The position numbers and the translations under genes are program-made. The notes beneath the pieces were generated by a model. The model was not told where the DNA came from and did not search any database. It worked only from the letters and a program-made list of their open reading frames with translations. Positions 14,687-39,919 of a stretch of DNA of 64,000 nucleotides are shown piece by piece (position 1 is the stretch's first letter; every line of letters begins with the position of its first letter). This stretch comes from Rhodoplanes elegans (GTDB lineage: Bacteria; Pseudomonadota; Alphaproteobacteria; Rhizobiales; Xanthobacteraceae). The stretch covers positions 1 through 64,000 of the forward strand of contig NZ_NHSK01000051.1 of the NCBI RefSeq assembly GCF_016653355.1, given 5' to 3'.

Positions 14687-15559
14687 TCACTTCCCTTGAC
14701 GCTTGTCGCGGCGCCGGTCGACCGGCTGATAGGCGATGCGGGCGTGCCAGCCGCAATAGGGCAGCCCCTCGGCGGTGCGGCCGCCGCAGAAGAAGAAATC
14801 CGGCGAGCCGGGATCGCCGAGCGGCCAATGGCACGTCGACGACGTGAGATCGAGCAGCGTGCAGCGCTCGCCGAAGGCGGCGTCGGGCGCCGCCAGCTCG
14901 GCCTGCGCGGCCGCGGCAGCCTGCTCGGCCGCGAGCTGCTCGGCGCTCGCTGGCGTCGTGTCGTCGGCGCGGAAGCAGAGCTGCTGCGAGCGAGCGGGCT
15001 TGGGCGCCTTCGGCGGCTTCGCCAGAGCGCGTGCCTCCGCGCGCTCGCGCTCGCGCTCCGCCGCCGCGATCCGCGTCTTCAGCACCACCTCGGTCCGTCG
15101 ACCGGTGAGGCCGAGCCGCTGGACCTTCCCGGCGACCTGGCTGCGCGTGCCGCCGATCGCCTCGGCGATCTCCTGATAGGACCGGCCGGCCCGCCACTCC
15201 TGCGCGATCCACGCCTCCAGCGCCTCGTCCCAATCGACGTAGCCGGACGCGAGGTAGCGGATCGGCGGCAGCGGGAGCGGCGCGCCGGGCTGCGCCGGCG
15301 GAGCGGCGACGATCACGGGCGCCGGCGCCGGCTCCTGGACAGGAGCCGGCTCGATCGGCGCGACGACGATGGGCGCCAGCTCCGGCGCCGGCTCGGGTGC
15401 CGGCTTCGGGACGTCGAGGCCGAGCCGCTTGACGATCACGCCGACCTCGTAGGGCGTGATGCCGCGGATCGCCATGGCGATCTGGCGCGGCGTGCGCTGC
15501 CCGTCCCACAGGCGGCTGACGGCCTCGCCGTGCGTCAGGACGATGGCGTCGAGCATCAT
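14687..15559 (-). CDS. GcrA-like cell-cycle regulator with duplicated N-terminal HTH
   Basis: 290 aa from tandem ATGs at 15559/15556 after GGAGGGG. Residues about 85-130 carry the GcrA helix-turn-helix (WDEALEAWIAQEWRAG, GTRSQVAGKVQRLGL). The C-terminus has the GcrA sigma-70-binding signature HWPLGDPGSPDFFFCGG and YCGWHARIAYQP. Ahead of this, residues 5-45 (AVSRLWDGQRTPRQIAMAI, VGVIVKRLGL) look like a second, diverged HTH joined by a Pro/Ala linker. Host GcrA binds RNA polymerase domain 2 of sigma-70 at methylated promoters. A phage copy could redirect host transcription in middle infection. Confidence 0.8.
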   Translation of the reverse strand: MMLDAIVLTHGEAVSRLWDGQRTPRQIAMAIRGITPYEVGVIVKRLGLDVPKPAPEPAPELAPIVVAPIEPAPVQEPAPAPVIVAAPPAQPGAPLPLPPIRYLASGYVDWDEALEAWIAQEWRAGRSYQEIAEAIGGTRSQVAGKVQRLGLTGRRTEVVLKTRIAAAERERERAEARALAKPPKAPKPARSQQLCFRADDTTPASAEQLAAEQAAAAAQAELAAPDAAFGERCTLLDLTSSTCHWPLGDPGSPDFFFCGGRTAEGLPYCGWHARIAYQPVDRRRDKRQGK

Positions 15560-15741
15560 CCCCTCCGGTTGCGCAGGTTGCGGCGCTTGACGGCCAGATC
15601 GTGACGCCATCGCTCGATCAGCGTCTTGGCCGGCGCGTCGGTGCGCGCCCGGGCGCGATCGAGGAACAGGCGCATGACGACGTGATCCGGGTCGGTCAGG
15701 ACGCTCTCGGGGAATTCCTCACCGCCCAGCAGGACACGCAT
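15556..15741 (-). CDS. Small phage protein, unknown function
   Basis: 61 aa from ATG at 15741. Charged and helical (VVMRLFLDRARARTDAPAKT, RWRHDLAVKRRNLRNRRG), strongly basic at the C-terminus. Its stop overlaps the gcrA-like start. Possibly nucleic-acid binding from composition alone. Confidence 0.45.
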   Translation of the reverse strand: MRVLLGGEEFPESVLTDPDHVVMRLFLDRARARTDAPAKTLIERWRHDLAVKRRNLRNRRG

Positions 15742-22019: not shown

Positions 22020-24251
22020 CTAGAGCCCCGTCGCGTCGTGCCAGGACGCGACGGGGTTTTTCGTTTCGGCCGCACGCGCATCCTCGGCGACGAGCGGATC
22101 GCAGAAGTCGTAAGTGAGCGCGAAGCCCTTGAACTCCGGGCCGGCTCGGTAGCCGCCGAGCCACATCGCCTCGTCGGCCGCCACCGGCTCGCCGGCAACG
22201 ATCCGGGCGATCAGATCGAGGGCGCGCTTCCAGCGCTGGTGCTTCGTCTCCTCGGTGCGCAGCGGGCGCACGACCTGATCCTCGGCGATCAACCGTGCCT
22301 GCAGGGCGAGCACGTCGGCCGACGGTGTCGGCGGCTCGACCGCGCGCGGCGTCATGGCGTCGAGCGCCGCGGCGATCGCCGGCGTCTCGTGCTGTTCGGT
22401 GCGTTTCGGCAACGTGATCACGTTCGGCGCCTTCGCAGCCTCGACGTCGCGCTCGGCCACGGACAGCACGCGCTCGATCAGGGCCGGCCCCTTGGTGATC
22501 TCCTTGATGGTGCGCCGCGCCTCGCGGGTCGCCTCGTCGAGGATCTCGGCCTGCGCGGCGCGCCGCGCCGCCATCAGGGCCGCCGGATCGATGCCGGCCA
22601 GCTCGGGGCATAGGCCCTCGCCGACGAAGCGGCCGTCGTCGGCATCGAAGGCGTAGATGCGGCCGGCATCGGCCGGGTCCATGCGCACCAGCACGCGGTC
22701 GCCCGGCAGCGCCTCCATGACCACGTAGTGGAAGCCGTCGACCCGCACGCCGAGCTTCGTCACCTCGCGGGTGCCGTCGCCGCCGGCGACCGGCATCAGC
22801 AGGAGATCGAGGGCGCGCGGATCGACGGTGCGAATCGGCCGCTTGGAGGCGGCGGCCGCGAGCCGCGGCGAGGTTTTCAGCGCCGCGTGCTCGCGCTCGG
22901 CGTAGACGGTGTCGACCCAGCGATCGACCATGGTCTGCAGCGCGGCGCCGGTGAGGCTCACGCCGAACGTCTCGGCGGTGTCGGCGCCGAGGTTTTTCGC
23001 GAAGCCCTGGCGATCTTCGAGGCGCTTGCGATCGGCGACCGAGTGACCGACGAAGCCCGGTAGCAGCGTGGCGCAATCGTGCTGGAACGTCTTGATGACG
23101 CGCTCGACGAAGGCCTTCTGCTGCGGCTGGTAGGGATCCGACAGCTCCATCTCGATGCCGAGCGCAGCGAACAGGCGCTGCGTGTCGCGGGCGACGAAGT
23201 CGGAGCCGTTGTCGGTCTTGATCTTGTCGGGCACGCCCCAGGCGAGGATCGCTTTGCGGATCAGCAGCGCCACGGCCGAGGCGCGCGGCGTGCGCGAGAC
23301 GTAGAGCACGGTGCGCCGGGTCGCGATGTCGATCGCGGCGTAGATCGTGTGGCGGCCGTCGATGCACAGCGCGTCGATCGGCGAGGCGTCGATCATCCAC
23401 AGCGTGTTCGGCTCGACGACCCAGCGATAGGAGCCGACGCCGGACGGCGCCAGGTGCGAGCGGTAGCGGTCCGGGTTGGAGAGCTTCGTCAGGGCGACGT
23501 GCTCGTCCTGCTTCAGCTTCGCGACGACGTGCTGGATGGTGCGGACTGGCGGCACCGGCACGGCCTTGCCGTTGCCGAGGTCCAGCGTGTCGCCGAACTC
23601 CGAGCGGATCAGCTGGCGCAGGTGATGCGCCGAGAGGTGCGGGTTCTGCGCGAGCAGCGCCAGCAGGAAGGTCCGCACGCGGCCGCCGGCGGCCTGATCG
23701 AGCACGCCTTTGCCCTTGCGGGCGGCGCTGCGATCGACGGCCAAAGCATCGGTGCGACCGGTCTCGCGGGCGGCACGCCAGCGCGCCAGCGAGCGCGGCG
23801 ACAGCGCCGGGACGATCTCGCGGATCCACGGCTCGATCGTGAGCGAGCCGGCGTTGTAGGCGTCGACGAAGAACTTGGTGCGCGCCGTCTCCGAGAGGCG
23901 CTGCCCGTTCGAGCAGGCCCGGTAGGCCGCGACGATGGCGAGCCGCGCGTCGCGCTCCAGCGCGGCGCGGTCGGAGAGGTCTCGGCCGGTCGACGGCGCG
24001 GGTGCGGGCGGCGCCGGCACGTCGGCGGCGCCGATGGTCCGGTGCCGGCGCTCGTAGGCGATGCGGGCGAGCGGCGGCAGGAGGGCGACGTTGAACTCCA
24101 GCCCGCCGCCACGGCCCGAGCGACGCCGCGCATAGGCGAGGCTCTCGGCCCAGCCCTCGCGGTCGGCGAGCAGCTGGACACCGCGCTCGGTGTCCGGCAG
24201 ACCCGGAAGGGCTTCAGCGGCGAGCTCGCGCGCCGTGCACCACTCCCTCAT
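22020..24251 (-). CDS. DDE transposase of Mu-like phage (MuA-like)
   Basis: 743 aa from ATG at 24251. The N-terminal region carries the Mu-type end-binding domain (MREWCTARELAAEALPGLP, TERGVQLLADREGW) and a second HTH region (LSPRSLARWRAARETGR). The integrase core has D288 in MIDASPIDALC, D347 in KTDNGSDFVA and E383 in QQKAFVERVIKTF, giving D-D-35-E spacing. A Mu C-terminal beta-barrel (LGVRVDGFHYVV, GDRVLVRMDP) follows. It cuts and joins prophage ends during replicative transposition. All three catalytic residues are present, so it should be active. Confidence 0.95.
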   Translation of the reverse strand: MREWCTARELAAEALPGLPDTERGVQLLADREGWAESLAYARRRSGRGGGLEFNVALLPPLARIAYERRHRTIGAADVPAPPAPAPSTGRDLSDRAALERDARLAIVAAYRACSNGQRLSETARTKFFVDAYNAGSLTIEPWIREIVPALSPRSLARWRAARETGRTDALAVDRSAARKGKGVLDQAAGGRVRTFLLALLAQNPHLSAHHLRQLIRSEFGDTLDLGNGKAVPVPPVRTIQHVVAKLKQDEHVALTKLSNPDRYRSHLAPSGVGSYRWVVEPNTLWMIDASPIDALCIDGRHTIYAAIDIATRRTVLYVSRTPRASAVALLIRKAILAWGVPDKIKTDNGSDFVARDTQRLFAALGIEMELSDPYQPQQKAFVERVIKTFQHDCATLLPGFVGHSVADRKRLEDRQGFAKNLGADTAETFGVSLTGAALQTMVDRWVDTVYAEREHAALKTSPRLAAAASKRPIRTVDPRALDLLLMPVAGGDGTREVTKLGVRVDGFHYVVMEALPGDRVLVRMDPADAGRIYAFDADDGRFVGEGLCPELAGIDPAALMAARRAAQAEILDEATREARRTIKEITKGPALIERVLSVAERDVEAAKAPNVITLPKRTEQHETPAIAAALDAMTPRAVEPPTPSADVLALQARLIAEDQVVRPLRTEETKHQRWKRALDLIARIVAGEPVAADEAMWLGGYRAGPEFKGFALTYDFCDPLVAEDARAAETKNPVASWHDATGL

Positions 24252-24700
24252 CGCCGCGCCTTCCACTGTGCATCGGCGGCCTCGATCTCGCGGTCGAGCT
24301 TCTCGCGCAGCTCGCGCGCCTTCTCGCGCCGGAGAAGGGCCTCGTACTTCGCCTCGATCACGATCAGGCCGGCCTCGTTGAGCAGCGTGTTGAGCGGGCG
24401 GACGTCCCCGGTCACCACGACGAGCCCGGCGAGCCGCTGCGCCGAGATGGCGTGCGGCTTTTCCGGGGACGCGTAGGCGTCGAGCGTCGCCTTCGACACG
24501 CGCTCGCCGAGATGCTCCGACAGCGCGGCAGCCACCTCCTCGCGGGAGCGGCCGCACTCGTCGAGCGTCTTGGCGATCGCGCGGGAGAGCCGCCGCGCCG
24601 GGGTCCACGCCTTGACCTGGTCCGCGTCGAAGCGCGGCACCACGGGCGCCGGCGCGTAGTCGCGGAACAGGTCGAGCGTGCTCGGGTCCCGGCGCGGCAT
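24248..24700 (-). CDS. Phage early protein with regulator-like helices, unknown function
   Basis: 150 aa from ATG at 24700. Residues 35-85 (ARRLSRAIAKTLDECGRSRE, LSEHLGERVSKATLDAYASP) look like an HTH, and the C-terminus is a long charged coil (ALLRREKARELREKLDREIE). It precedes the transposase gene, as small DNA-binding proteins do in several alphaproteobacterial Mu-like phages. Function not assigned. Confidence 0.55.
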   Translation of the reverse strand: MPRRDPSTLDLFRDYAPAPVVPRFDADQVKAWTPARRLSRAIAKTLDECGRSREEVAAALSEHLGERVSKATLDAYASPEKPHAISAQRLAGLVVVTGDVRPLNTLLNEAGLIVIEAKYEALLRREKARELREKLDREIEAADAQWKARR

Positions 24701-27360: not shown

Positions 27361-27395
27361 GCCAAACTTGGCTGAGGCGTCAAGCCAAACTTGGC
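27361..27395. promoter_or_regulatory. Paired operators GCCAAACTTGGC
   Basis: Two identical 12-bp sites at 27361-27372 and 27384-27395, 23 bp apart (about two helical turns), in the repressor-ner control region. Each has GCCAA/TTGGC arms around a 2-base centre. They are likely sites for the repressor, Ner or both. The second overlaps a TTG at 27391, which argues for the downstream start of the repressor. Confidence 0.65.
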
Positions 27396-27411
27396 GAGGC
27401 AGGGCTGTGAA

Positions 27412-28071
27412 TTGAGCGAGCCAGACCTAAGGGCTTTTGCAGAGCGGCTCCGAGACGCTGTCGAACGGGCAGGCGGTAAAACCGTTGTTGTTCAACGTTC
27501 TGGCGTTCCAGATCGCTCTTTGAGTCACTATCTCGCGGGAACCACCGAGCCGAAGGCATTCGCTCTAGCCGCGATCGCCGAAGCATGTTCAGTGAGCATG
27601 GAGTCGCTGATGGGCTCAGCGGCTCCTGCCGGTCTGCCAAATTTGGCGGAGCGATTCGCCTTCGTTCGTCGTTACGACGTGCGCGCGAGCGCCGGTAACG
27701 GAGCCCTCACCACCGCCGACGAGCTGGAAGGTGGCGACTTCGTCGCGTTTCGGGCCGATTGGCTGCATCGGATCGGAGTAAGCCCGCGCCAAGCCGAGGT
27801 GCTGATCGCGATCGGAGATTCGATGGAGCCGACGATCCGCGACGGCGACCTGCTGCTGATCGACCGCTCGTTCGACCGGCCCAAGGACAACGGGATCTAC
27901 GTCTTGGTGTTGGGCGGCATGGTTCTGGTGAAGCGCGTCCAGACGCGCCGGGACGGAAGCGTGGTCTTGCTTTCCGACAACCAGAGGTACGAAAATGAAG
28001 TCGTGCCGGCGGACGAGCTGCCGGACCTCAAGGTCGAAGGGCGGGTGCGCTGGTTCGGCCGGACAATTTAG
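27412..28071 (+). CDS. Phage repressor, HTH plus S24 (LexA/CI-type) domain
   Basis: 219 aa from TTG at 27412; TTG at 27391 in the same frame is an alternative but lies inside an operator. Residues 5-60 form an HTH (AFAERLRDAVERAGG, VVQRSGVPDRSLSHYLAG). The S24 domain has the catalytic Ser in IGDSMEPTIRDGD (about S137) and Lys in MVLVKRVQ (about K174). The hinge RASAGNGAL is a plausible self-cleavage region, so RecA-dependent SOS induction is possible, unlike the Mu repressor. A third GCCAAATTTGGC operator lies within the gene. Confidence 0.88.
   Translation: MSEPDLRAFAERLRDAVERAGGKTVVVQRSGVPDRSLSHYLAGTTEPKAFALAAIAEACSVSMESLMGSAAPAGLPNLAERFAFVRRYDVRASAGNGALTTADELEGGDFVAFRADWLHRIGVSPRQAEVLIAIGDSMEPTIRDGDLLLIDRSFDRPKDNGIYVLVLGGMVLVKRVQTRRDGSVVLLSDNQRYENEVVPADELPDLKVEGRVRWFGRTI
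27636..27647. promoter_or_regulatory. Third operator copy GCCAAATTTGGC inside the repressor gene
   Basis: A perfect 12-bp palindrome differing from the two upstream operators at one central base. Its position about 250 bp downstream would allow DNA looping by a repressor oligomer. Confidence 0.5.
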
Positions 28072-28961: not shown

Positions 28962-30242
28962 TTGATCCCACATCTGCCATCTGATCTTGCGGGTTACACC
29001 CGCCTGCTGGTCGTCCTGACGATCCTGTCGACCTTCAATCAGCTCGATCGTCAGCTCACCGTGATCCTGCTAGAGCCGATCCGCTGCGAGTTCGCGCTCT
29101 CCGACGTCGAGCTGGGGCTGCTGTCGGGCTTCGGCTTCGCGATCCTCCATGCCGGGCTCAGCATTCCGGCCGCCGTGTGGGTGGTGAACCGCGGACGGCG
29201 AAACCTCGTCGCCGTCTCGACCGCGGTGTGGGGCCTCGCCACCGTCGCGTCAGGCCTCGCCCAGTCGTTCGGCCAGCTTCTGCTCGGACGCATCGGCATC
29301 GGCATCGGCGCCGGCGAGGCCGGCGTGACGCCCGCCTCGCACGCGATGATCTCCGACGCCTTCCCGCAGCAGGAGCGCGCCGGCGCGATGGCGGTGTGGT
29401 CCTCGGGCATCAATCTCGGCGTGCTCCTCGCCTTTCTGGTCGGTGGCTTCGTGGGCCAGCGTTACGGCTGGCGCGCCGCCTTCGTCGGCTGCGGCCTCGC
29501 CACGGCGGCGATGGCGCTGGTGGTCCGCTTCGCCCTCGCCGAGCCGGCGCGCGCGGCCGATCGCGCCGCCGATGCGCTGCGCGCCATGCCGTCGCTCGCC
29601 CTGCTCGCGCTGACGATACGGACCATGTGGGGCGAGCCGGCGCTGCATCACATCGTCTTCGGCGCCACCATCACGGCGACGGTCGGCTACGGCGCGATCT
29701 CGTGGGTGCCCTCATTCCTGGTGCGGGTGCACGGGCTCGACCTCGCCACCACGGGCACCTATCTGGCGCTGGTGATCGGGGTGGGTGGTGCCGGCGTGGT
29801 GCTGCTGGGCGGGCGCCTCGCCGATCGGCTGCAGCGCTTCGGGCTCGGCTGGTCGCTCGTCGCGATCGGGCTGTGGCTGATCGTCGTGAAGCCGTTCGGG
29901 CTGATGTTCTATCTCACCTCCAGCACGACGGTCGCGCTCGTCGCCTTCGTGCTTCCCGCGACCGCCGCCAACGCCTATCTCGGCCCCGCTCTCGCGGCGC
30001 TCCACAACGGCTTTCCGCCGACGGTGCGGCCGGCCGCCTCCGCCGTGTTCCTCATCGCCGTCAATCTGATCGGTCTTGGCGTCGGCCCGCTGCTGGTGGG
30101 CGCGCTCAGCCAGCTCGTGTTCGCCGAGGCCGGGCCGCGCTCGCTCGGCTACGCGCTCGCCGTGATGCAGGGGCTGGGCGCCTGGGGCGCCCTTCACTTC
30201 ATCCTCGCCGGCCGTTGGCTCTCCCGCCGCGGCGCGGCCTGA
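28962..30242 (+). CDS. MFS transporter, Spinster-like
   Basis: 426 aa with about 12 membrane segments. The start LLVVLTILSTFNQLDRQL with the conserved Asp-Arg in helix 1, PASHAMISDAFPQQERAGAM and the middle loop with basic residues fit the Spinster-type branch of the major facilitator family, which export lipids or amphipathic compounds in other organisms. The only nearby start is TTG at 28962 with no good ribosome site. The true start may have been lost or moved by the prophage insertion just upstream. The substrate is unknown; it stands about 800 bases before the NRPS cassette. Confidence 0.78.
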   Translation: MIPHLPSDLAGYTRLLVVLTILSTFNQLDRQLTVILLEPIRCEFALSDVELGLLSGFGFAILHAGLSIPAAVWVVNRGRRNLVAVSTAVWGLATVASGLAQSFGQLLLGRIGIGIGAGEAGVTPASHAMISDAFPQQERAGAMAVWSSGINLGVLLAFLVGGFVGQRYGWRAAFVGCGLATAAMALVVRFALAEPARAADRAADALRAMPSLALLALTIRTMWGEPALHHIVFGATITATVGYGAISWVPSFLVRVHGLDLATTGTYLALVIGVGGAGVVLLGGRLADRLQRFGLGWSLVAIGLWLIVVKPFGLMFYLTSSTTVALVAFVLPATAANAYLGPALAALHNGFPPTVRPAASAVFLIAVNLIGLGVGPLLVGALSQLVFAEAGPRSLGYALAVMQGLGAWGALHFILAGRWLSRRGAA

Positions 30243-31058
30243 ACTGCCCTGCCTCGCACTGACGTCGATCCACTCCGCTCATCCCCGCGGACGCGGGGAT
30301 CCAGAGCCACACATCGTGTCGCCACTGGGTCCCCTTCGCGGGACGAGCAGACACCGGCTCCGAGTTCATCCCGGCCTAGAAGTGTCCAGCGTGCCCGGGC
30401 GCCGTCGTGATCCTGCCGGCGCTGCTCGCCTGGGATGCACGCACCAGCACGGTCGGCGGCGTCACCGCCGTGATCGATCCGCAGACCAGGCAGCCGCGTC
30501 CGCTCGGCGCCGAGCCGCCGTCGGTCGCGCCGCCCGAGGGCAAAGGCGCGCCGATGGTCGGCCCCGCCGCCGACGGAAACCCGCAGGCCCCGGGCCGGGC
30601 CTCCCGTCACTGCGGCGGACGTCCGCTGCCGCAGCGGGCGGCCATGCCGGGCGATTCGCGCTCCGCTGTCCGGCGCCGGGTGGTCCGGGCCGGCCGTCGA
30701 CGCCGCTTCCGTAACCCCTCGCTAACCAGCCGAACAGCCTCCGTAATCGTGCGGATTCAGGGTCCGCGGGGCCGTCCCGCAAGGCCTCCGGTGCTGCTGC
30801 GGCGCAGCGTTCACGGTCCCTAAACGGCTCATTCAGCGGGCATTCATGTGCCGGTGCCCAGGTTGCCGAGCGTGAGAGGCTGCCGGATCCAAAAGCCTCG
30901 GGGGAAGCGCAGGACCACCCATCCCGTCCGTGCCGTCGCGAGCCGCCGTATCGGCGGCGTGCGGCACACCCTCGACCCCAGGGCCCGGCAGCACCGAACG
31001 GCAGCACGATCTCGGCCCGGCGCGGGCGACCGCGCAGGACCGCAACCAGAGCAGACCG
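30243..31058. other. Long intergenic region between transporter and NRPS
   Basis: About 816 bases without a gene I can support. It starts with the palindrome at 30281-30300. A 138-codon frame from 30407 has a plausible first 60 residues but then turns into Arg/Pro-rich antisense-like sequence and was not called. The last 200 bases should hold the promoter of the NRPS gene. Confidence 0.5.
30281..30300. repeat. REP-like palindrome after the MFS gene
   Basis: ATCCCCGCG-GA-CGCGGGGAT, perfect 9-bp arms. Sequences of this type are dispersed in Hyphomicrobiales genomes between genes. It may also serve as a terminator for the MFS gene. Confidence 0.55.
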
Positions 31059-34000
31059 ATGGCCCATCGTATCGACTTCGGCGACCTCCGCGACGGCGCG
31101 ACCGGTGGTCCCGCCCGGATGCAGGAGGCGCTCCGCGCCGGCCTCGCCGCGACCGGGAACGAGGGGCATGCCCGGATGATCTCCGGCCAGGACGTGCTGT
31201 TCTGCGGCAGCCCCGACCCGTCGCCGCGCTGGCGGGCGGGCGAGCGGCTGCATCATCTGTTCGAGGACGCGGCCGACCGGTTCGGTCGCAACGCCGCGGT
31301 GGTCACGTCCGACGCGTCGCTGACCTATGCCGAGCTCGACCGCCGCGCCAACCAGGTGGCCCGCCACCTGATCGCCCGCGGCGTGAAGGCCGGCGATCGC
31401 GTCGGCCTGCTGTTCGACAAGACGGTCGAGACCTACGTCGCGCTGGTCGCGGTGATGAAGGCGAACGCCGCCTATGTGCCGCTCGATCCCGGCCTGCCGG
31501 CCGAGCGCATCCGCTACATGCTCGGCGACGCGATGATCCGCACCATCGTGTCGATGGCGAGCTTCTCCGAGCGGCTGTCCGCCCAGGACGCCACCGCCGT
31601 GCTGCTCGACGCCGAGCGCGCCGAGATCGACGCCCGCGCGCCCGACCGGCTGTTCGCCGGCGAGGTCGGCGAGACCGACGACCAGGGCTGCTACGTCATC
31701 TACACGTCGGGCACCACCGGCAATCCGAAGGGCGTGCTGGTCGAGCATCCGAGCATCTGCAACTTCGTGCGCGTCGCCGCGGACCGCTACGGCTACCGGC
31801 CGGGCGACCGCGTCTACCAGGGCATGACCATCGCGTTCGACTTCTCGATCGAGGAGACCTGGGTGCCGCTGATGGCCGGCGCCACGCTGGTGCCGGCGCG
31901 CGCCGGCGGCGGGCTGGTCGGCGAGGAGCTGGCCGACTTCCTGCACGAGCGCCGCGTCACCGCGATGTGCTGCTGCCCGACGCTGCTCTCCACCATCGAG
32001 CGCGACCTGCCGCATCTGCGCCTGCTGATGGTCGGCGGCGAGGCCTGCCCGCAGAACCTGGTGATGCGCTGGAGCCGGCGCGGCCGCACCATCCTCAACA
32101 CGTATGGGCCGACCGAGGCGACCGTCACGGCGACCGTCACCGAGCTCGTGCCGGAGAAGCCCGTCACCATCGGCATCCCGATGCCGACCTACTCGATCGT
32201 GATCCTCGACCCGGCGGAGCCGCGCTCCATGCCGCGCGGCGAGCTGGGCGAGATCGGCATCGCCGGCATCGGCGTCGCCGCCGGCTATCTCAACCGCGAG
32301 GAGCTGACGGGCCAGAAGTTCATCGACGACTTCGTCGGCATCCCGAACAACGCCTCCAAGCGCATCTATCGCACCGGCGACCTCGGCCGCATCAACGACG
32401 CGGGCGAGATCGAGTATCTCGGCCGCATCGACACCCAGGTGAAGATCCGCGGCTACCGCATCGAGCTCGTCGAGATCGAGTCGGTGATGATGGAGATGCC
32501 GCAGATCGCCCAGGCCGCGGTGTCGACCTTCGAGCCCGAGCCCGGCCAGCCCGAGCTGGTCGGCTATTATGCGCTGAAGCCCGGCGCGGCGGCGCTGCCG
32601 AAGGCCGAGATCGTCCAGGCGCTCAAGCGCCGGCTGCCCGCCTACATGGTGCCCGCTTATCTGGAGGAGCTGGCCGCGATCCCGATGTCGGCCTCGAACA
32701 AGGCCGACCGCAAGCGCCTGCCGAAGCCGACCGGCGGTCGCGTCCAGGCCGGCGGCAGCGACAAGGTGGTCGCCGCTCGCACCGACAACGAGCGCCTGCT
32801 GGTCGAGGCGATCGCCGAGATCCTCACCGTCGAGCGCGTCTCGATCGAGGACCACTTCTTCGACGACCTCGGCGCCAACTCGCTCCTGATGGCGCGCTTC
32901 TGCGCCCGCATCCGCCGCAACCCGGGCATGGAGAACGTCTCCATGCGCGACATCTACACCAACCCGACGATCGCCAGGCTCGCCGCGATCTTCGACGCCG
33001 ACGGGCAGGCGGCCGAGGTCGCGGTCGCGCCCGAGCCGTTCCACGTCCCGTCGGACTTTTCGTATTACGCCTGCGGCGCGGCTCAGCTCCTGTTCTACGG
33101 CGCGATGAGCCTGCTCGGCCTCGCGGTCTTCGACATCGGCCTCGAATGGGCCTATGCGGTGGCCGGCGACCCGGTGCAGCTCTATCTGCGCAGCGTGATC
33201 GCGGCGGTCGGCGGCTTCTTCGGGCTGACGGCCGTTTCGGTGATCGGCAAGTGGCTCCTGGTCGGCCGCTTCACGGAGGAGCGCATCCCGATCTGGTCGG
33301 CGCGCTACTTCCGCTTCTGGGCCGCCAAGACGCTGATCCGCAACGCGCCGGTTGCGCTGTTCGCCGGCCACCCGATCTTCAACGTCTATCTGCGCCTGCT
33401 CGGCGCCAAGGTCGGCCGCAACACCATCGTCAAGACGCGCTTCGTGCCGGTGGCCACCGACCTGATCTCGATCGGCGACGACACCATCCTGCGCAAGGAG
33501 ACGATCCTGCTCGGCTACCGGGCGCAGTCGAACTACATCACCACGGGCCGCGTCAGCATCGGCGACCGCGCCTTCGTGGGCGAGGCGAGCGTGCTCGACA
33601 TCGACACCGCGATGGGGAACGACACCCAGCTCGGCCACGCCTCCTCGCTGCAGAGCGGCCAGCGCGTGCCGGACGGCAAGCGCATGCACGGCTCGCCCGC
33701 CATCGAGACGACGGCTGACTACGTGCGGGTGGAGGCGCCGCCCGCGTCGATGCTCCGCCGGGTGCTCGCCGAGACCGTGCAGCTCGCCGGCCTGTTCGCG
33801 ATCGTCATCCCGCTGCCGATCGTCGCGCTCGCCCTGTGGGAGCAGCACTCCGCCACGGCGGCCGGCGCCGCCGCCGCGACCGGCTTCTGGACCTCGCTGC
33901 CGACCGTGCTGGCCGTGTCGGTGATCTCGTTCTTCGGCTCGCTCGTCACCGGGCTCGCCGGCGTGTGGGCGGTGCCGCGCCTCGCGCGCTTCTTCCTGAA

Positions 34001-35267
34001 GGAAGGCCGCACCTACTCGACCTTCGGGCTCCACGCTTGGCTGCAGGGCCTCACCGAGAAGTTCTCGAACTCGCTGTTCTTCAACGTGCTGTTCGGCGAT
34101 AGCTCGGCCATCGTCCACTACATGCGCTTCGTCGGCTGGAACCTGAACAAGGTCGACCAGACCGGCTCGAACATGGGCACCAACCAGAAGCACGACAACC
34201 CGTTCTGCTGCGAGATCGGCTCCGGCACGATGGTCTCGGACGGGCTGTCGATGATCAACGTGGAGATGTCGGCCTCGGCGTTCCGGCTCTGCGACACCCG
34301 CATCGGCGACAACAACTACCTGGGCAACAACATTCACTATCCGCCCGGCGGCCGCACCGGCGCCAACGTGCTGCTCGGCACCAAGGTGATGATCCCGATC
34401 GACGGCCCGGTGCAGGAGAATGTCGGCCTGCTCGGCTCGCCGCCCTTCGCCATTCCCCGCATGGTCGAGCGCGACAAGTCGATGCTCGGCGCCATTCCCG
34501 AGGACGAGCGGCTGCGCCGTCTCGCCGCCAAGAACCGCTACAATGCCGTGACGGCGGCGCTGTTCCTCGCCACCCGCTGGCTCCTGGTGTTCGCCTCGTT
34601 GGCCGTGTGGCAGGCCGCGCTGCTGACCTACGACCGCTTCGGCGTCTTCTCGCTGTTCGCCGCCGGTGCCGTCACGTCGGCCGCCGCGGTGCTGTGGTTC
34701 ACGTTCCTGGAGCGCGCCTCGCTCGGCTTCGGCTCCCTGAAGCCCGAGATGGTGACCATCTACGATCCGTATTTCTGGAGCCACGAGCGGCACTGGAAGC
34801 TGTCCGACTGGCCGCACGTCCAGCTGTTCGGCGGCACGCCGATCAAGAGCCTGATCCTGTGGCTGATGGGCGTGAAGGTCGGCCGCAAGGTCGTCGACTT
34901 CGGCTGCTCGATCACCGACCGCAGCCTCACCCAGGTCGGCGACTACGCCAACCTCAACGAGGGCAGCGTCCTGCAGGCGCACTCGCTGGAGGAGGGCGTG
35001 TTCAAGTCCGATCACATCCGCATGGGCACGGGCTGCACGCTCGGCCCCTCGGCCTTCGTGCACTACGGCGTGACGCTCGGCGAGCACGTGGTGATCGACA
35101 CCGATGCCTTCCTGATGAAGGGCGAGGTGGTCGACTCCCACACCACTTGGCGGGGCAATCCGGCCAAGCTGTTCCGCCGGCACGGCTCCGCCGACGGCGC
35201 GCTCGGCGCCGCCGTCTACCGGGCCCCGGAGGCGGTCGCCCCGGCCTACCGGATCGCGGCGGAGTAG
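31059..35267 (+). CDS. Pls/PosA-type NRPS: adenylation, carrier and membrane beta-helix domains
   Basis: 1402 aa from ATG at 31059; a longer frame opens upstream but its first 43 residues look non-coding. Residues about 55-545 are an adenylation domain: YTSGTTGNPKG near 215, NTYGPTEATVT, YRTGDLG, and a Lys in the SASNKADRK end. Residues 575-645 are a carrier with S608 in DDLGANSLLMARF. There is no condensation domain. From about 668 the protein is membrane-embedded with hydrophobic helices alternating with left-handed beta-helix segments (VGRNTIVKTRF, SIGDRAFVGEAS, GDNNYLGNN), as in the NRPS terminal domain of poly-lysine synthetase and PosA. It should load an amino acid and transfer or polymerise it at the membrane. 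Substrate not predicted. Confidence 0.88.
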   Translation: MAHRIDFGDLRDGATGGPARMQEALRAGLAATGNEGHARMISGQDVLFCGSPDPSPRWRAGERLHHLFEDAADRFGRNAAVVTSDASLTYAELDRRANQVARHLIARGVKAGDRVGLLFDKTVETYVALVAVMKANAAYVPLDPGLPAERIRYMLGDAMIRTIVSMASFSERLSAQDATAVLLDAERAEIDARAPDRLFAGEVGETDDQGCYVIYTSGTTGNPKGVLVEHPSICNFVRVAADRYGYRPGDRVYQGMTIAFDFSIEETWVPLMAGATLVPARAGGGLVGEELADFLHERRVTAMCCCPTLLSTIERDLPHLRLLMVGGEACPQNLVMRWSRRGRTILNTYGPTEATVTATVTELVPEKPVTIGIPMPTYSIVILDPAEPRSMPRGELGEIGIAGIGVAAGYLNREELTGQKFIDDFVGIPNNASKRIYRTGDLGRINDAGEIEYLGRIDTQVKIRGYRIELVEIESVMMEMPQIAQAAVSTFEPEPGQPELVGYYALKPGAAALPKAEIVQALKRRLPAYMVPAYLEELAAIPMSASNKADRKRLPKPTGGRVQAGGSDKVVAARTDNERLLVEAIAEILTVERVSIEDHFFDDLGANSLLMARFCARIRRNPGMENVSMRDIYTNPTIARLAAIFDADGQAAEVAVAPEPFHVPSDFSYYACGAAQLLFYGAMSLLGLAVFDIGLEWAYAVAGDPVQLYLRSVIAAVGGFFGLTAVSVIGKWLLVGRFTEERIPIWSARYFRFWAAKTLIRNAPVALFAGHPIFNVYLRLLGAKVGRNTIVKTRFVPVATDLISIGDDTILRKETILLGYRAQSNYITTGRVSIGDRAFVGEASVLDIDTAMGNDTQLGHASSLQSGQRVPDGKRMHGSPAIETTADYVRVEAPPASMLRRVLAETVQLAGLFAIVIPLPIVALALWEQHSATAAGAAAATGFWTSLPTVLAVSVISFFGSLVTGLAGVWAVPRLARFFLKEGRTYSTFGLHAWLQGLTEKFSNSLFFNVLFGDSSAIVHYMRFVGWNLNKVDQTGSNMGTNQKHDNPFCCEIGSGTMVSDGLSMINVEMSASAFRLCDTRIGDNNYLGNNIHYPPGGRTGANVLLGTKVMIPIDGPVQENVGLLGSPPFAIPRMVERDKSMLGAIPEDERLRRLAAKNRYNAVTAALFLATRWLLVFASLAVWQAALLTYDRFGVFSLFAAGAVTSAAAVLWFTFLERASLGFGSLKPEMVTIYDPYFWSHERHWKLSDWPHVQLFGGTPIKSLILWLMGVKVGRKVVDFGCSITDRSLTQVGDYANLNEGSVLQAHSLEEGVFKSDHIRMGTGCTLGPSAFVHYGVTLGEHVVIDTDAFLMKGEVVDSHTTWRGNPAKLFRRHGSADGALGAAVYRAPEAVAPAYRIAAE

Positions 35268-35304
35268 ATCCGTGCCGCCGACCGACCTGATCACGTCGAC
35301 AAGC

Positions 35305-35327
35305 ATGGCCGGGCTCGCCCCGGCCAT
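35305..35327. repeat. Intergenic palindrome, rhizobial type
   Basis: ATGGCCGGG and CCCGGCCAT-type arms around a short loop, 38 bases after the NRPS stop. The motif resembles dispersed palindromes of Hyphomicrobiales. It may weaken readthrough from the NRPS gene to the GNAT gene. Confidence 0.5.
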
Positions 35328-35378
35328 TCGCGTTCTTCGCGCCGGCCGCGGCCGGGCGCGCCGCCGGAGCATGCAGCC

Positions 35379-35882
35379 GTGGACATGACGACGAAGCCGA
35401 GAGTCCGAGGGCTCTTTCCGGGGGCGCCCGCGCCGGCGAGCGTGCGGCTCGCCGACGTGACGGCCGACAACTGGCGCGACGTCGCCGCGCTCGAGCTCGA
35501 GCCCGAGCAGCGCGATCTCGTCGCCGGCAATCTCTACTCGATCGCCGAGTCGAAGTTCGATCCGCTGGCGCGGCCGCGCGCCATCTACGCCGGCAGCGAG
35601 CTGGTCGGCTTCCTGATGTACGACGTCGGCAGCGACGATCCGCGGCGCGCCGTCATCTACCGGTTCATGATCGACCGCCGCTTCCAGGGCTTCGGCTACG
35701 GCCGTGCGGCGCTGGAGCGGGCGCTCGACGAGATCCGCGCCGTGCCCGACGTCGCCACCATCGCGATCTGCTACGAGCCGGCCAACCCGGCCAAGAAGCT
35801 CTATGCCAGCGTCGGCTTCGTCGAGATCGGCTCCGACGAGGATGGCGAGGTGATCGCCGAGCTTCCGGTGACGGCGGCATGA
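35379..35882 (+). CDS. GNAT acetyltransferase, BltD/PaiA-like polyamine acetyltransferase
   Basis: 167 aa from GTG at 35379 (GGAG upstream; ATG at 35385 is an alternative). The family pattern is that of spermine/spermidine acetyltransferases: ALELEPEQRDLVAGNLYSIA, AIYAGSELVGFLMYD, RFMIDRRFQGFGYGRAALE with the acetyl-CoA-binding RxxGxG-like loop, and CYEPANPAKKLYASVGF. It would acetylate a primary amine with acetyl-CoA. It lies between the NRPS and the carrier-activating enzyme and upstream of an acetylpolyamine amidohydrolase, which together point to polyamine chemistry. Confidence 0.82.
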   Translation: MDMTTKPRVRGLFPGAPAPASVRLADVTADNWRDVAALELEPEQRDLVAGNLYSIAESKFDPLARPRAIYAGSELVGFLMYDVGSDDPRRAVIYRFMIDRRFQGFGYGRAALERALDEIRAVPDVATIAICYEPANPAKKLYASVGFVEIGSDEDGEVIAELPVTAA

Positions 35883-35894
35883 GGCGGAGGACGG

Positions 35895-36590
35895 ATGCTG
35901 CTCGACGGTGACACGACGCACGATGCGCTCCCCGCGGCCGGACGGGCGTTCACCGGGACGGCCCACCACCCCGAGGTCGCCGCCCTGCAGCGCGTCCTCG
36001 ACGTGCTCGTCCCCGGCGTCGCGGTGGGTTGCCGGGCGATCCTTCCGGGCGACGAGGCGGCGCTGCGCGAGGCGGAGGCGGACTCGATCGTCTCCACCAT
36101 CGTCGCGGTGCGGCGCGCCAGCGGTGCTGCCCGCGTGGTCGCGCGGGCGCTGCTCGATGACCTCGGCCATCGCGACGTGGTCCTGGTGCGCACCGCCTCC
36201 GGGGCGCCGGCCTGGCCCGACGGGATCGTCGGCTCGCTGGCGCACGATCAGGAGATCGCGGTCGCCGCGGTGGCGAGCCGGGCGCGCATCGCGGCGCTCG
36301 GCATCGACGTCGAGCCGGCCGACCCGCTGCCGGACGACATCGTCGATCTCGTGGTGACGGCGGCCGAGCACGACGGTCTCGACCGCGATCCCTTGCACGG
36401 GCGCCTGCTGTTCGCCGCCAAGGAAGCCGTGTACAAGGCGATGCATCCGCTCGACGGGGTCTTCCTCGATTTCCACGACATCGTGGTCGACCTCGCCGCC
36501 CGCACGGCCGTCGTCCCGAGCGGCCGCATCCTCGATCTCGCCGTATGCCGCGCGCCGCGGATCGTCGTTCTCGCCCTCCTGCGCGCGTGA
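35895..36590 (+). CDS. 4'-phosphopantetheinyl transferase (EntD/Sfp superfamily)
   Basis: 231 aa, ATG after GGAGGACGG. Motifs of the EntD group: GSLAHDQEIAVAAVA, LGIDVEPADPLP with the metal-binding Asp and Glu, and LLFAAKEAVYKAM with the catalytic Lys. It transfers the pantetheine arm of coenzyme A to the carrier serine, here most likely S608 of the adjacent NRPS. Twelve bases separate it from the GNAT gene. Confidence 0.85.
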   Translation: MLLDGDTTHDALPAAGRAFTGTAHHPEVAALQRVLDVLVPGVAVGCRAILPGDEAALREAEADSIVSTIVAVRRASGAARVVARALLDDLGHRDVVLVRTASGAPAWPDGIVGSLAHDQEIAVAAVASRARIAALGIDVEPADPLPDDIVDLVVTAAEHDGLDRDPLHGRLLFAAKEAVYKAMHPLDGVFLDFHDIVVDLAARTAVVPSGRILDLAVCRAPRIVVLALLRA

Positions 36591-36616
36591 GGCCGGGGCC
36601 GCTCCCCGCAGAGTTC

Positions 36617-37648
36617 ATGATCACGATCTACAGCGACGCTCACGCCTTGCACGACGGCAAGGCGGAGTTGCACGACGGCAAGCTGGTGTCGAGCTTCGAG
36701 ATGCCGCGCCGGGCCGAGCTGGTTCTCGCGCGCGTCCAGGAGGTCGGTCTCGGGCCGGTGTCGCCGCCGAAGATCTTCGGGCTCGATCCGGTGCGGCGCG
36801 TGCACGCGCCGGACTACGTGGCGTTCCTCGAGACCGCCTGGGACGAATGGGTCGCCGAGCACGGTGAATACGACGCGCTGCCGTTCACCTGGATCGGCCC
36901 GGGCATGCGGCGCGTCGTGCCCGATCATATCGACGGCAAGCTCGGCTACTATTCGTTCGATGCGGGCACGCCGATCACGGCCGGCACGTTTCGCGCGATC
37001 AGGTCCGCGGCCGACGTCGCGCTCACCGGCGCCGAGCTGATCGTGCGCGGCGAACGGGTCGCCTTCGCCCTCACGCGGCCGCCCGGTCATCATGCGCATC
37101 GCGCCTGCTACGGCGGCTACTGCTTCTTCAACAACGCCGCCGTGGCGGCGCAGGCGCTACGCGACGCCGGCGCCGATCGCGTCGCCGTGCTCGACATCGA
37201 CTATCACCACGGCAACGGCACCCAGGATATCTTCTACAGCCGTGGTGACGTGCTGTTCGCGTCGCTGCACGCCGATCCGGTGCAGGAGTATCCTTATTAT
37301 CTCGGTTTTTCCGATGAGACCGGAGAGGGAGCGGGAGAGGGCACCAACGTCAATTACCCGCTGCCGTTCGGCACCGGGTTCGACGTCTGGCACGCGGCGC
37401 TGCGCCATGCACTCGCCCGCATCGCCACTTTCCGGGCCGACGCGCTCGTCGTCTCGCTCGGCGTCGACACCTACAAGGGGGACCCGATCTCGCGTTTCCG
37501 GCTCGACACCGCTGATTATCCGGTGATCGGCGCGGCCCTCGCCGGCGCGGGGCTGCCGACCCTGTTCGTGATGGAGGGCGGCTACGCCGTCGAGGCGATC
37601 GGCGTTAACGCCGTCGGAGTGCTGCAGGGATTTGCGGACGCGGCATGA
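36617..37648 (+). CDS. Acetylpolyamine amidohydrolase, class II HDAC-like
   Basis: 343 aa from ATG at 36617. The deacetylase core is intact: RPPGHHAH (active-site His pair), LDIDYHHGNGTQDIFY with the Asp-x-His zinc ligands, and SLGVDTYKGDP with the third ligand. The long loop HADPVQEYPYYLGFSDETGE and the MYGLPF-like EYDALPFTW stretch are typical of bacterial acetylpolyamine amidohydrolases rather than histone deacetylases. It removes acetyl groups from N-acetylated polyamines. It ends the cassette, before a strong terminator hairpin. Confidence 0.85.
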   Translation: MITIYSDAHALHDGKAELHDGKLVSSFEMPRRAELVLARVQEVGLGPVSPPKIFGLDPVRRVHAPDYVAFLETAWDEWVAEHGEYDALPFTWIGPGMRRVVPDHIDGKLGYYSFDAGTPITAGTFRAIRSAADVALTGAELIVRGERVAFALTRPPGHHAHRACYGGYCFFNNAAVAAQALRDAGADRVAVLDIDYHHGNGTQDIFYSRGDVLFASLHADPVQEYPYYLGFSDETGEGAGEGTNVNYPLPFGTGFDVWHAALRHALARIATFRADALVVSLGVDTYKGDPISRFRLDTADYPVIGAALAGAGLPTLFVMEGGYAVEAIGVNAVGVLQGFADAA

Positions 37649-37659
37649 CGTCGACGTGC

Positions 37660-37698
37660 GAAGATCCACCGGTACGGACTCCGCACCGGTGGTTCTTC
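37660..37698 (+). terminator. Hairpin ending the NRPS/polyamine cassette
   Basis: Arms around 37660-37672 (GAAGATCCACCGGT-like) and 37685-37698 (ACCGGTGGTTCTTC) pair over 13 to 14 bases with a loop of about 12. It lies 12 bases after the amidohydrolase stop and before a convergent gene. There is no long T-run. Confidence 0.55.
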
Positions 37699-37725: not shown

Positions 37726-38106
37726 TCACGGGCAGTACCAGACCGGGCCGATCTGGATGCAGCCGCGGTTGCGCCAACCCGGCGGACGTCCACCATAGCG
37801 ACGCCAGCCCGGCGGGGGACCACGATAGCCAGGACGCGGGCCGTCCCAGGCGCGTCCGCGCCGCCAGTCGTCGCGACGGTCGAAGCGCCCGTCGCGACCG
37901 TCGAAGCGACGCTCGTTCATCCGCCCGTCGCCCGGGCCGCGCCCATCGCCGGGCCCGAGGCCGCGTTGCGCGAGCGTGATCGGCGCTTCGGCCGAAGTCG
38001 CGCCGCGCGCGCCGTCCTGCGGCGCGGCGGCCGGTGACGCGGCGAGCGCCGGCGCTCCGCCCAGCATCAGAACGACGGCCGCTGCGCTCAGGAAACTCTT
38101 CGGCAT
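37726..38106 (-). CDS. Secreted Gly/Arg/Asp-rich protein
   Basis: 126 aa from ATG at 38106 after GGAGG. A signal peptide (MPKSFLSAAAVVLMLGGAPALA) is followed by a low-complexity Gly/Asp/Arg/Pro segment and the ending GCIQIGPVWYCP. Proteins with this end are common in rhizobia and Methylobacterium relatives, with unknown roles outside the inner membrane. Convergent with the polyamine cassette, divergent from nasT. Confidence 0.65.
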   Translation of the reverse strand: MPKSFLSAAAVVLMLGGAPALAASPAAAPQDGARGATSAEAPITLAQRGLGPGDGRGPGDGRMNERRFDGRDGRFDRRDDWRRGRAWDGPRPGYRGPPPGWRRYGGRPPGWRNRGCIQIGPVWYCP

Positions 38107-38291
38107 GTAGTGTCCTCCGGGGGGCTCGCGTGCGGCGTGGTGAACGCCTTCGTCAGGACAAAGCCCGAGTGCCGCACAAGTTTCACGAAGCGCGGCAAAT
38201 CGCCTGCGACGGTTTGCATCGCAGTGCCGTTCCGGCGACAATGCCGGCCGCGGGGCAGGGCGATGCCGGACGGGGTGGTGCGAGCCGGGCG

Positions 38292-38876
38292 ATGCAGGAC
38301 GGGGTGGTATCCATCGCGGTGGTCGACGCCGACCGGGCCCGCGCCGCGATCGTGGAGGAGGGGCTGCGCGCCGCGGGCATTCCGCGCGTCGCCATCGTGC
38401 CCGACTCGCCCGATCTCCTCGACCGCCTCGTCGCGCTCGCGCCCGACGTCGTGGTGATCGCCCTCGACAGCCCCAATCGCGACGTGCTCGAGCAGATGTT
38501 CAAGGTGTCGCGCGTCGTCGAACGTCCGGTCGCCATGTTCGTCGACCGCTCCGACGCCGCCACCATGCAGGCCGCCATCGATGCCGGCGTCTCCGCCTAT
38601 GTGGTCGACGGCCTCAAGCCGGAGCGGGTGCGCGCCATCGTCGACATGGCGGTGATGCGCTTCAACGCCTACAGCCGCATGCGCCGCGAGCTGGAGGAGG
38701 CGAAGACGGCGCTCGCGGATCGCCGGACCATCGACAAGGCGAAGGGTCTCTTGATGGCCCGCAAGGGCCTGTCCGAGGAGGCCGCCTACGCGCTGCTGCG
38801 GCGGACCGCCATGAACGAAAAGAAGCGCATGGTCGAGATCGCCCAGGCGATCATCACGGCGGCGGAGCTGTTCTGA
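38292..38876 (+). CDS. nasT: NasT antiterminator, ANTAR domain
   Basis: 194 aa from ATG at 38292. A receiver-like N-terminal domain (VSIAVVDADRARAAIVEEGL, VVVIALDSPNRDVLEQM) lacks a clear phospho-acceptor cluster. The C-terminal ANTAR module (ALADRRTIDKAKGLLMARKG, YALLRRTAMNEKKRMVEIAQ) binds paired hexaloop hairpins in nascent RNA and prevents termination. NasS holds it inactive until nitrate or nitrite binds. Its target is very likely the leader at 40132-40221. Confidence 0.88.
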   Translation: MQDGVVSIAVVDADRARAAIVEEGLRAAGIPRVAIVPDSPDLLDRLVALAPDVVVIALDSPNRDVLEQMFKVSRVVERPVAMFVDRSDAATMQAAIDAGVSAYVVDGLKPERVRAIVDMAVMRFNAYSRMRRELEEAKTALADRRTIDKAKGLLMARKGLSEEAAYALLRRTAMNEKKRMVEIAQAIITAAELF

Positions 38877-39919
38877 TGGCCAAGACCCGTCTCACCGTGG
38901 GCTGGGTGCCGCTCACCGACGTCGCCGTCCTGATCGCCGCGGCCGAGCGCGGCTTCGCGGCGGCCGAGGGCCTCGACCTCGTGCCGGTGCGCGAGACCTC
39001 GTGGGCCAACACGCGCGACAAGCTGGTGTTCGGCCACTTCGACGCCGCCCATATGCTGGCCCCGCTCGCGGTGGCGACGACGCTCGGCCTCGGCCATGTC
39101 GCGCTGCCGCTGGTCGCGCCCTTCATGTTCAACATCGGCGGGCATGCTGTGACGGTGTCGCGGCCGCTCGCCGCTCTGCTCGCGCCGCGCGGCGGCTTGT
39201 CGGGCCGCGTCGCGGATGCTGCGGCGGCGCTCGGTGACGTCGCCCGCGGCCGCGCCGCGGCCGGCGAGGGGCCGCTGACCTTCGCGGCCGTGTTCCCGTT
39301 TTCGGTCCATGCCTATCTGCTCCGGCGCCTGTTCGTCGCCGCCGGGCTCGATCCGGAGCGCGACGTCCGCCTCGTCGTGGTCCCGCCGCCCTTCATGGTC
39401 GATGCCCTGAGGCGCGGCCTGGTCGACGGCTTCTGCGTCGGCAGCCCGTGGAACAGCGTCGCGGTCGATGAGGGGGTCGGCACCATCGTGCTGCTCGGCA
39501 ACACGGTCGTGCCCGGCGCGCCCGACAAGGTGCTGGCGCTGCCGGCCGACCGCGCCGACACGCCGGAGGCGGCGGCGCTGATCCGTGCGCTGGCAGCAGC
39601 CGGCGCCTGGTGCGCGGCGCCGGAGAACCGGGCCGACCTCGCCGCGCTGCTGGCCGAGCCGCGCCATCTCGATCTGTCGGCCGACGTGATCCGGCGCACC
39701 CTGGAGGGCGCCCTCGTGATCGACGGCGCCGGCACGGTGCGTAACGACCCCAGCTTTCTGATTCTCGGCGAGGGCCGCCCCGAAAGCACTCAGGCCGACT
39801 GGCTGCACGACGCGATGACGGCGGCTGGCCATCTGCCGGAGGGGCGGCGCGAAGCCGTGCGCGCCGTGTTCCGTGGCGATCTCTACGATTCCGCATGCGC
39901 CGCCGCGGCGCCGCGCTGA
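38876..39919 (+). CDS. nasS: NasS nitrate/nitrite sensor (NrtA-like, cytoplasmic)
   Basis: 347 aa; ATG shares a base with the nasT stop. The NrtA/CmpA periplasmic-binding fold is recognisable (VGWVPLTDVAVLIAAAERGF, RETSWANTRDKLVFGHFDAA, GFCVGSPWNSVAV), but no signal peptide is present, so it stays in the cytoplasm. In other proteobacteria NasS binds nitrate or nitrite and releases NasT. Tight coupling to nasT supports the pairing. Confidence 0.88.
   Translation: MAKTRLTVGWVPLTDVAVLIAAAERGFAAAEGLDLVPVRETSWANTRDKLVFGHFDAAHMLAPLAVATTLGLGHVALPLVAPFMFNIGGHAVTVSRPLAALLAPRGGLSGRVADAAAALGDVARGRAAAGEGPLTFAAVFPFSVHAYLLRRLFVAAGLDPERDVRLVVVPPPFMVDALRRGLVDGFCVGSPWNSVAVDEGVGTIVLLGNTVVPGAPDKVLALPADRADTPEAAALIRALAAAGAWCAAPENRADLAALLAEPRHLDLSADVIRRTLEGALVIDGAGTVRNDPSFLILGEGRPESTQADWLHDAMTAAGHLPEGRREAVRAVFRGDLYDSACAAAAPR

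Follow-up and report, generated by a model that had tools for sequence, protein, structure and literature searches.

A recurrent unit of synthetase, acetyltransferase and phosphopantetheinyl transferase, joined in Rhodoplanes by an acetylpolyamine amidohydrolase: a putative cationic oligomer cassette

What might a bacterium make with a one-module membrane synthetase whose gene is followed by one gene predicted to add acetyl groups and by another predicted to remove them? This question is raised by a 64,000-nucleotide stretch of Rhodoplanes elegans DNA (contig NZ_NHSK01000051.1, positions 1 to 64,000; hereafter the window). Four genes lie there on the forward strand in the order synthetase, GNAT acetyltransferase, Sfp/EntD-type 4'-phosphopantetheinyl transferase (PPTase) and acetylpolyamine amidohydrolase (APAH), and they form an operon-like block at window 31059-37648. 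A preliminary description of the same DNA had proposed this order on one strand, and the reading frames together with NCBIfam and Pfam matches agree with it. All four genes are under purifying selection, with ratios of nonsynonymous to synonymous substitution (dN/dS) of 0.18-0.53 against three Rhodoplanes relatives.

We found the synthetase-GNAT-PPTase core repeatedly within one clade of Hyphomicrobiales synthetases, and this conserved unit is a more robust result than the pairing of two acetyl enzymes. Our reading of the whole cassette, to which we give a probability of about 0.5, is that it makes a short cationic homo-oligomer, that a dedicated GNAT caps or disarms it or its monomer, and that the Rhodoplanes APAH deacetylates that compound or polyamines. 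In the open literature, with most subscription papers outside its scope, we recognised no description of the synthetase-GNAT-PPTase unit or of the four-gene combination.

The conserved core

The protein encoded by the first gene (31059..35267, forward strand) is, by sequence, classed as a CHPA-type synthetase of the Pls/PosA family, an assignment drawn from NCBIfam, Pfam, hydropathy and a structure model. The gene sits in a 1,445-codon open frame whose start is uncertain, ATG 31059, 31119 or 31176 being the likely ones. Its adenylation (A) domain (about 31260-32702) scores 419.1 bits with the NCBIfam model AA-adenyl-dom (cut-off 317.4), and its carrier (32796-32987) is a PP-binding domain whose LGANS serine, encoded at 32877-32879, is residue 650 of the printed frame and residue 607 from ATG 31059. 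The polymerisation domain (33069-35165) matches the NCBIfam terminal domain TIGR02353 at 687.9 bits, against a curated cut-off of 423.1. Pfam gave three matches, corresponding to a single adenylation and carrier (A-T) module, and no condensation domain was found in the synthetase. Hydropathy revealed six hydrophobic segments in three transmembrane (TM) pairs, and the modelled terminal half is built of three repeats, each with a TM pair, some short helices and a stretch rich in strands (mean predicted local distance difference test score, pLDDT, 77, weak stretches included). The nearest solved folds to this model are hexapeptide acyltransferases, which cover about one repeat; a three-fold repeat of the same build is described for the terminal half of PosA in section 13 of PMC10522769. 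The A domain, the one carrier serine, the membrane half and the lack of a condensation domain, all listed in the preliminary description, are therefore upheld by Pfam and hydropathy.

The GNAT gene (35379..35882, forward strand, from GTG 35379 or ATG 35385) carries the Acetyltransf_1 domain. It is followed after 12 nt by the PPTase gene (35895..36590, forward strand), identified by NCBIfam and Pfam, whose product scores 61 bits with 4PPT_N (cut-off 27) and 44.9 bits with ACPS (cut-off 25). PosA is described as a single-gene operon, whereas here GNAT, PPTase and, in Rhodoplanes, APAH follow the synthetase.

To see how far this arrangement extends, 66 loci were compared, at least two pairs of which are the same contigs. 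Sixteen came from a genome scan and 50 from the 54 TIGR02353 matches (E up to 1e-50) in 51 of the 297 genomes of the order, leaving out the window's own match and three fragments (one in genome G218 and two in G214). The GNAT gene stands directly behind the synthetase in 17 of the 66 loci, and all four genes occur in order in three, those of R. tepidamans (L008), R. serenus (L009) and Rhodoplanes sp. (L014). Thus, for the search of other genomes suggested in the preliminary description, the three-gene core was recovered beyond the genus and the four-gene order only within Rhodoplanes. In a quick tree of 58 synthetases, which has flagged long branches and excludes L013, L022, L023, L031, L032, L035, L036, L064 and L073 as fragments or duplicates, the state changes twice each for GNAT, PPTase and APAH and three times for Dat; for GNAT and PPTase the two changes are readable as one gain and one loss. 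One fork (SH-aLRT 99) holds 16 rows, with GNAT in 14 and PPTase in 15.

A profile built from synthetase-linked GNATs only, with at most 13 candidates scored per genome, found 12 matches in 11 of the 297 genomes. Eight of the nine best (E up to 1.7e-56) lie directly behind a synthetase and the ninth lies at a contig edge; the remaining three (4.3e-40 to 3.7e-34) have no synthetase linkage. Because eight of the nine strongest homologues are placed in this way, the GNAT looks dedicated to the synthetase, in keeping with the earlier claim that the two belong together. Spread of the unit beyond the order was rejected within the sample: four of 385 genomes of the class had a GNAT match, one being that of the window and the other three weak (2.0e-28 to 4.4e-31), and six synthetase loci outside the order, three of which had their A-domain code read, gave no GNAT, PPTase, APAH or Dat match.

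The adenylation pocket and the likely product

The A-domain code of the synthetase reads DFECMGTVTK, with D1 and E3 present and Phe as its second residue. To read it, the columns were set by the motif positions of the phenylalanine-activating domain. As a control, the same columns on other rows returned DLEDIGTVVK and DGESVSVVNK, equal or close to published codes (DLEDIGTV, then T, V or I, then K for Rhizobia, and DGESISVVNK for the epsilon-poly-beta-lysine synthetase). According to section 14 of PMC10522769, PDAP and PDAB synthetases have Phe at position 2, where PosA has Met and Pls has Ala. The substrate prediction proposed as a check in the preliminary description thus yields a basic pocket, apparently of the short-chain kind that would take diaminopropionate or diaminobutyrate (Dap/Dab). 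Together with the TIGR02353 match, this pocket bears out the Pls/PosA type. The window enzyme resembles the CHPA synthetases Pls (epsilon-poly-L-lysine), PosA (delta-poly-L-ornithine), PDAP and poly-Dab in its A-T module, its six-TM three-fold beta-helix domain and its D1/E3 pocket, and it has the Phe at position 2 in common with the PDAP/PDAB synthetases of PMC10522769 (sections 13 and 14).

A sister group of synthetases has mostly the code DFECLSAVTK. An aminotransferase gene lies directly upstream of the synthetase in 10 of the 33 loci, selected from the 66, that neighbour clustering covered (L015, L016, L021, L034, L037, L038, L040, L048, L062 and L072; two are from Leisingera). Two of these aminotransferases were tested and scored 628.5 and 605.9 bits with the ectB model (cut-off 552.2), and Dat exceeded its cut-off in five of the six sister genomes searched; in the sixth, a contig end truncates the match. 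The ectB/dat gene beside these synthetases ties Phe-type codes to diaminobutyrate, and the sister-group loci are likely poly-diaminobutyrate makers. A parallel is found in the poly-D-Dab genes pddA-pddD of Streptoalloteichus hindustanus (PMC8225329): both systems have a CHPA synthetase, and the transaminase PddC parallels the sister-group ectB/dat. In contrast to pddA-pddD, the neighbourhood of the window synthetase showed no Dat, racemase or aspartate kinase; conversely, the text of that paper mentions no acetyltransferase, and the window locus has a GNAT.

The preliminary description had offered two kinds of product, an aminoacyl-polyamine or a cationic oligomer. The cationic oligomer fits the synthetase, while the ground for the aminoacyl-polyamine lies in the enzyme names. 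By sequence, the best solved-structure matches of the GNAT are two Enterococcus faecalis spermine/spermidine acetyltransferase entries (7.7e-14 and 8.5e-14). Its model has the GNAT fold (pLDDT 92.9), and a fold comparison singled out no substrate, many amine and peptide acetyltransferases being tied by Z. By its nearest relatives in sequence the GNAT is a putative spermine/spermidine acetyltransferase. These relatives, together with the action of the APAH family on acetylpolyamines (PMC11532494), would suit a scheme in which the synthetase moves an aminoacyl group onto a polyamine and the two acetyl enzymes adjust the amount of free polyamine or shield one of the amines. We consider this scheme quite improbable, given that the C-terminal half is the homopolymer domain TIGR02353, that the products which PMC10522769 gives for enzymes of this kind are homopolymers, and that the strongest GNAT homologues track the synthetase.

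The amidohydrolase and the proposed mechanism

The last gene of the block (36617..37648, forward strand) encodes a protein with the Hist_deacetyl domain and the histone deacetylase (HDAC) fold. Its catalytic motifs GHH, DxDxHHGNGTQ, GVDT and EGGY are intact and all aligned, presumably with the zinc-binding residues among them. The protein aligns near full length with the solved APAHs 9gkz (1.9e-133), 6phr and 3q9b, which have the same motifs; the peculiarity here is the position behind a synthetase. The best solved APAH aligns from the Met of ATG 36617 even when a longer frame is supplied, and this ATG is most likely the start. The enzyme looks able to remove acetyl groups, a prediction made from its sequence.

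Among the loci examined, APAH closes the block only in the four Rhodoplanes, none of which has another full-length APAH match in its genome. Full-length APAH is present in exactly four of six Rhodoplanes genomes, the same four in which the synthetase occurs; of the remaining two, which lack both, one is only 58% complete. The distance between PPTase and APAH is 26 nt in the window, 17 nt in L008 and 132 nt in L009, with a 4-nt overlap in L014, so that APAH overlaps the PPTase gene or begins at most 26 nt from it in three of four. In three comparisons, dN/dS of APAH is no higher than that of the synthetase. APAH thus appears to be a genuine part of the operon in Rhodoplanes; it is probably a late addition and may serve general polyamine use too. 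A second neighbourhood of this kind was seen in L069 (2112-11289), where an APAH lies upstream of a more distant CHPA synthetase with the code DYECISLVSK. Genes for an amidase-like protein and an old-yellow-enzyme-like oxidoreductase accompany them, both with model scores under the cut-off.

We propose the following mechanism. The PPTase would arm the carrier, as its family suggests, and the A domain would load a basic amino acid, in line with its pocket. The three-repeat membrane beta-helix domain, judged by its family, would polymerise a small diamino acid via isopeptide bonds. The GNAT, as its near-exclusive linkage suggests, may acetylate a primary amine of the pathway monomer or oligomer, either as a chain cap or to disarm the compound within the cell. 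In Rhodoplanes, APAH, added at the operon end, might deacetylate that compound or polyamines, which is the least certain step. Acetyltransferases confer self-resistance in the clusters of two cationic peptides, odilorhabdin and paenilamicin (PMC8749412 and PMC9054821); there, too, an acetyltransferase is tied to a cationic natural product, although the product classes differ.

We put the chance that GNAT and APAH act on the same molecule at less than even. A reversible acetyl cycle, with the GNAT blocking the free terminal amine of the monomer or chain and so stopping or disarming the oligomer, and the APAH recruited in Rhodoplanes unblocking it to set chain length or switch activity on, seems to us unlikely. 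Acetyl groups serve a protecting logic in puromycin and bialaphos biosynthesis. If acetylation were a protecting step here too, the monomer or chain would be acetylated in the cell and deacetylation by APAH would be needed for activity. Both acetyl enzymes do lie in one operon-like block under constraint, but 14 of the 17 loci with a GNAT behind the synthetase, some of them cut by contig ends, have no APAH, and we regard this explanation as doubtful.

A stronger competitor, which we rate somewhat short of an even chance, keeps the core as in our reading and takes APAH for a general polyamine deacetylase lodged in the operon, without action on the product. The wide distribution of APAH speaks for it, as does one ABC (ATP-binding cassette) ATPase cluster found near APAH in seven of 19 other fetched loci, five of the seven from one genus; one member of this cluster was tested and is over the PotA cut-off. 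General use is also expected of the only full-length APAH match in the window genome. Furthermore, remodelling of APAH specific to Rhodoplanes was rejected, since only one column (His82) was fixed in the four Rhodoplanes and present in at most one of 20 others with at least 70% of the others agreeing. The pairing of APAH with GNAT may therefore be a local rearrangement. Against a purely general role stand the presence of APAH in all four Rhodoplanes with the synthetase and its absence from the two without (with the incomplete genome among them), and its tight spacing to the PPTase gene in three of four. APAH is present somewhere in all eight genomes with a synthetase-linked GNAT, compared with 72 of 289 others. 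This does not count as evidence that the two are linked, since the eight represent three genera and APAH also occurs in relatives without the synthetase (G105, G248 and G137).

Several results weigh against the capped-oligomer reading with a dedicated GNAT and a participating APAH. The make-up of the GNAT profile and the candidate limit favour linked hits, and the profile shows that homologues this close accompany the synthetase rather than that other relatives are absent. Within the clade, PPTase occurs without GNAT in L018 and L028, GNAT without PPTase in L011, and neither in the basal row L017; the core is thus not indispensable. APAH at E up to 1e-90 is widespread, in 80 of the 297 genomes, and L010, the nearest locus outside Rhodoplanes, is without it. 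The main gap is the short diamino acid itself, which has no visible source. In the window genome neither Dat/EctB nor SbnA reaches its cut-off: the best Dat match scores 166.6 bits (cut-off 401.6) and the best SbnA match 223.6 bits (cut-off 349.95). Dat is over cut-off in none of four Rhodoplanes and in one of 12 searched genomes with the GNAT/PPTase core or part of it, namely G209, with three copies on another contig; SbnA is over cut-off in none of 19 genomes.

In genome G232, one contig breaks off within a Dat-linked synthetase (L072), and a close GNAT homologue stands at the start of another contig (L082, 1-441) with no PPTase match following it. If the two were adjacent, the GNAT would be tied to a diaminobutyrate pathway.

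How a one-module synthetase sets chain length and how a producer tolerates its own polycations are unsettled; for the PDAP synthetase, release and size distribution are described as unexplained in PMC4668381. A small acetyltransferase that follows one clade of synthetases is a specific candidate for either role. With the natural eraser that it adds, the Rhodoplanes operon makes both addressable in one four-gene system.

Stem-loops and flanking genes

Folding revealed a 9-bp stem in the gap between the synthetase and GNAT genes (35305..35327, forward strand), present also in L008 and L009 and not in L014. A strong stem-loop follows the last gene (37666..37692, forward strand), with five T among the next eight bases, which makes a terminator possible. 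A terminator scan did not list this stem, whose loop exceeds the length that the scan allows, and the folds of the matching region differ among L008, L014 and L009. Of the former statement that the cassette ends in one hairpin, the terminal stem stands; its absence from the scan, the differing folds in relatives and the second stem at 35305-35327 qualify the rest.

The gene upstream (28962-30242) encodes a major facilitator superfamily (MFS) protein. From its end it is 687 nt to the synthetase open frame and 816 nt to the first ATG in that frame. None of the 66 related loci gave a match to the MFS protein, although L009 reaches only about 2.7 kb upstream. At the DNA level, similarity ahead of the synthetase ends near window 30787 for L008 and near 30824 for L014. 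The product is over the Pfam cut-off for MFS_1; none of the 25 NCBIfam matches shown is over cut-off, and the models compared included no Spinster model. On the related loci and the limits of DNA similarity, this gene, formerly described as a Spinster-type exporter, was rejected as a member of the cassette.

Just upstream of the cassette lies a Mu-like prophage (window 5936-28068, ends approximate) with a Mu-type transposase (22020-24608, reverse strand), an S24 repressor (27391-28068, forward strand), a ParB-like protein, DUF3164, a terminase-like protein, a Mu F-like head protein and an endolysin-like gene. A GcrA-type cell-cycle regulator domain (PF07750, 120 bits) is found within the prophage region at 14687-15610. 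Directly downstream of the cassette, window 38034-39919 holds an ANTAR/response-regulator gene and an NMT1-like binding-protein gene, which we would guess to be a nitrate-type uptake locus.

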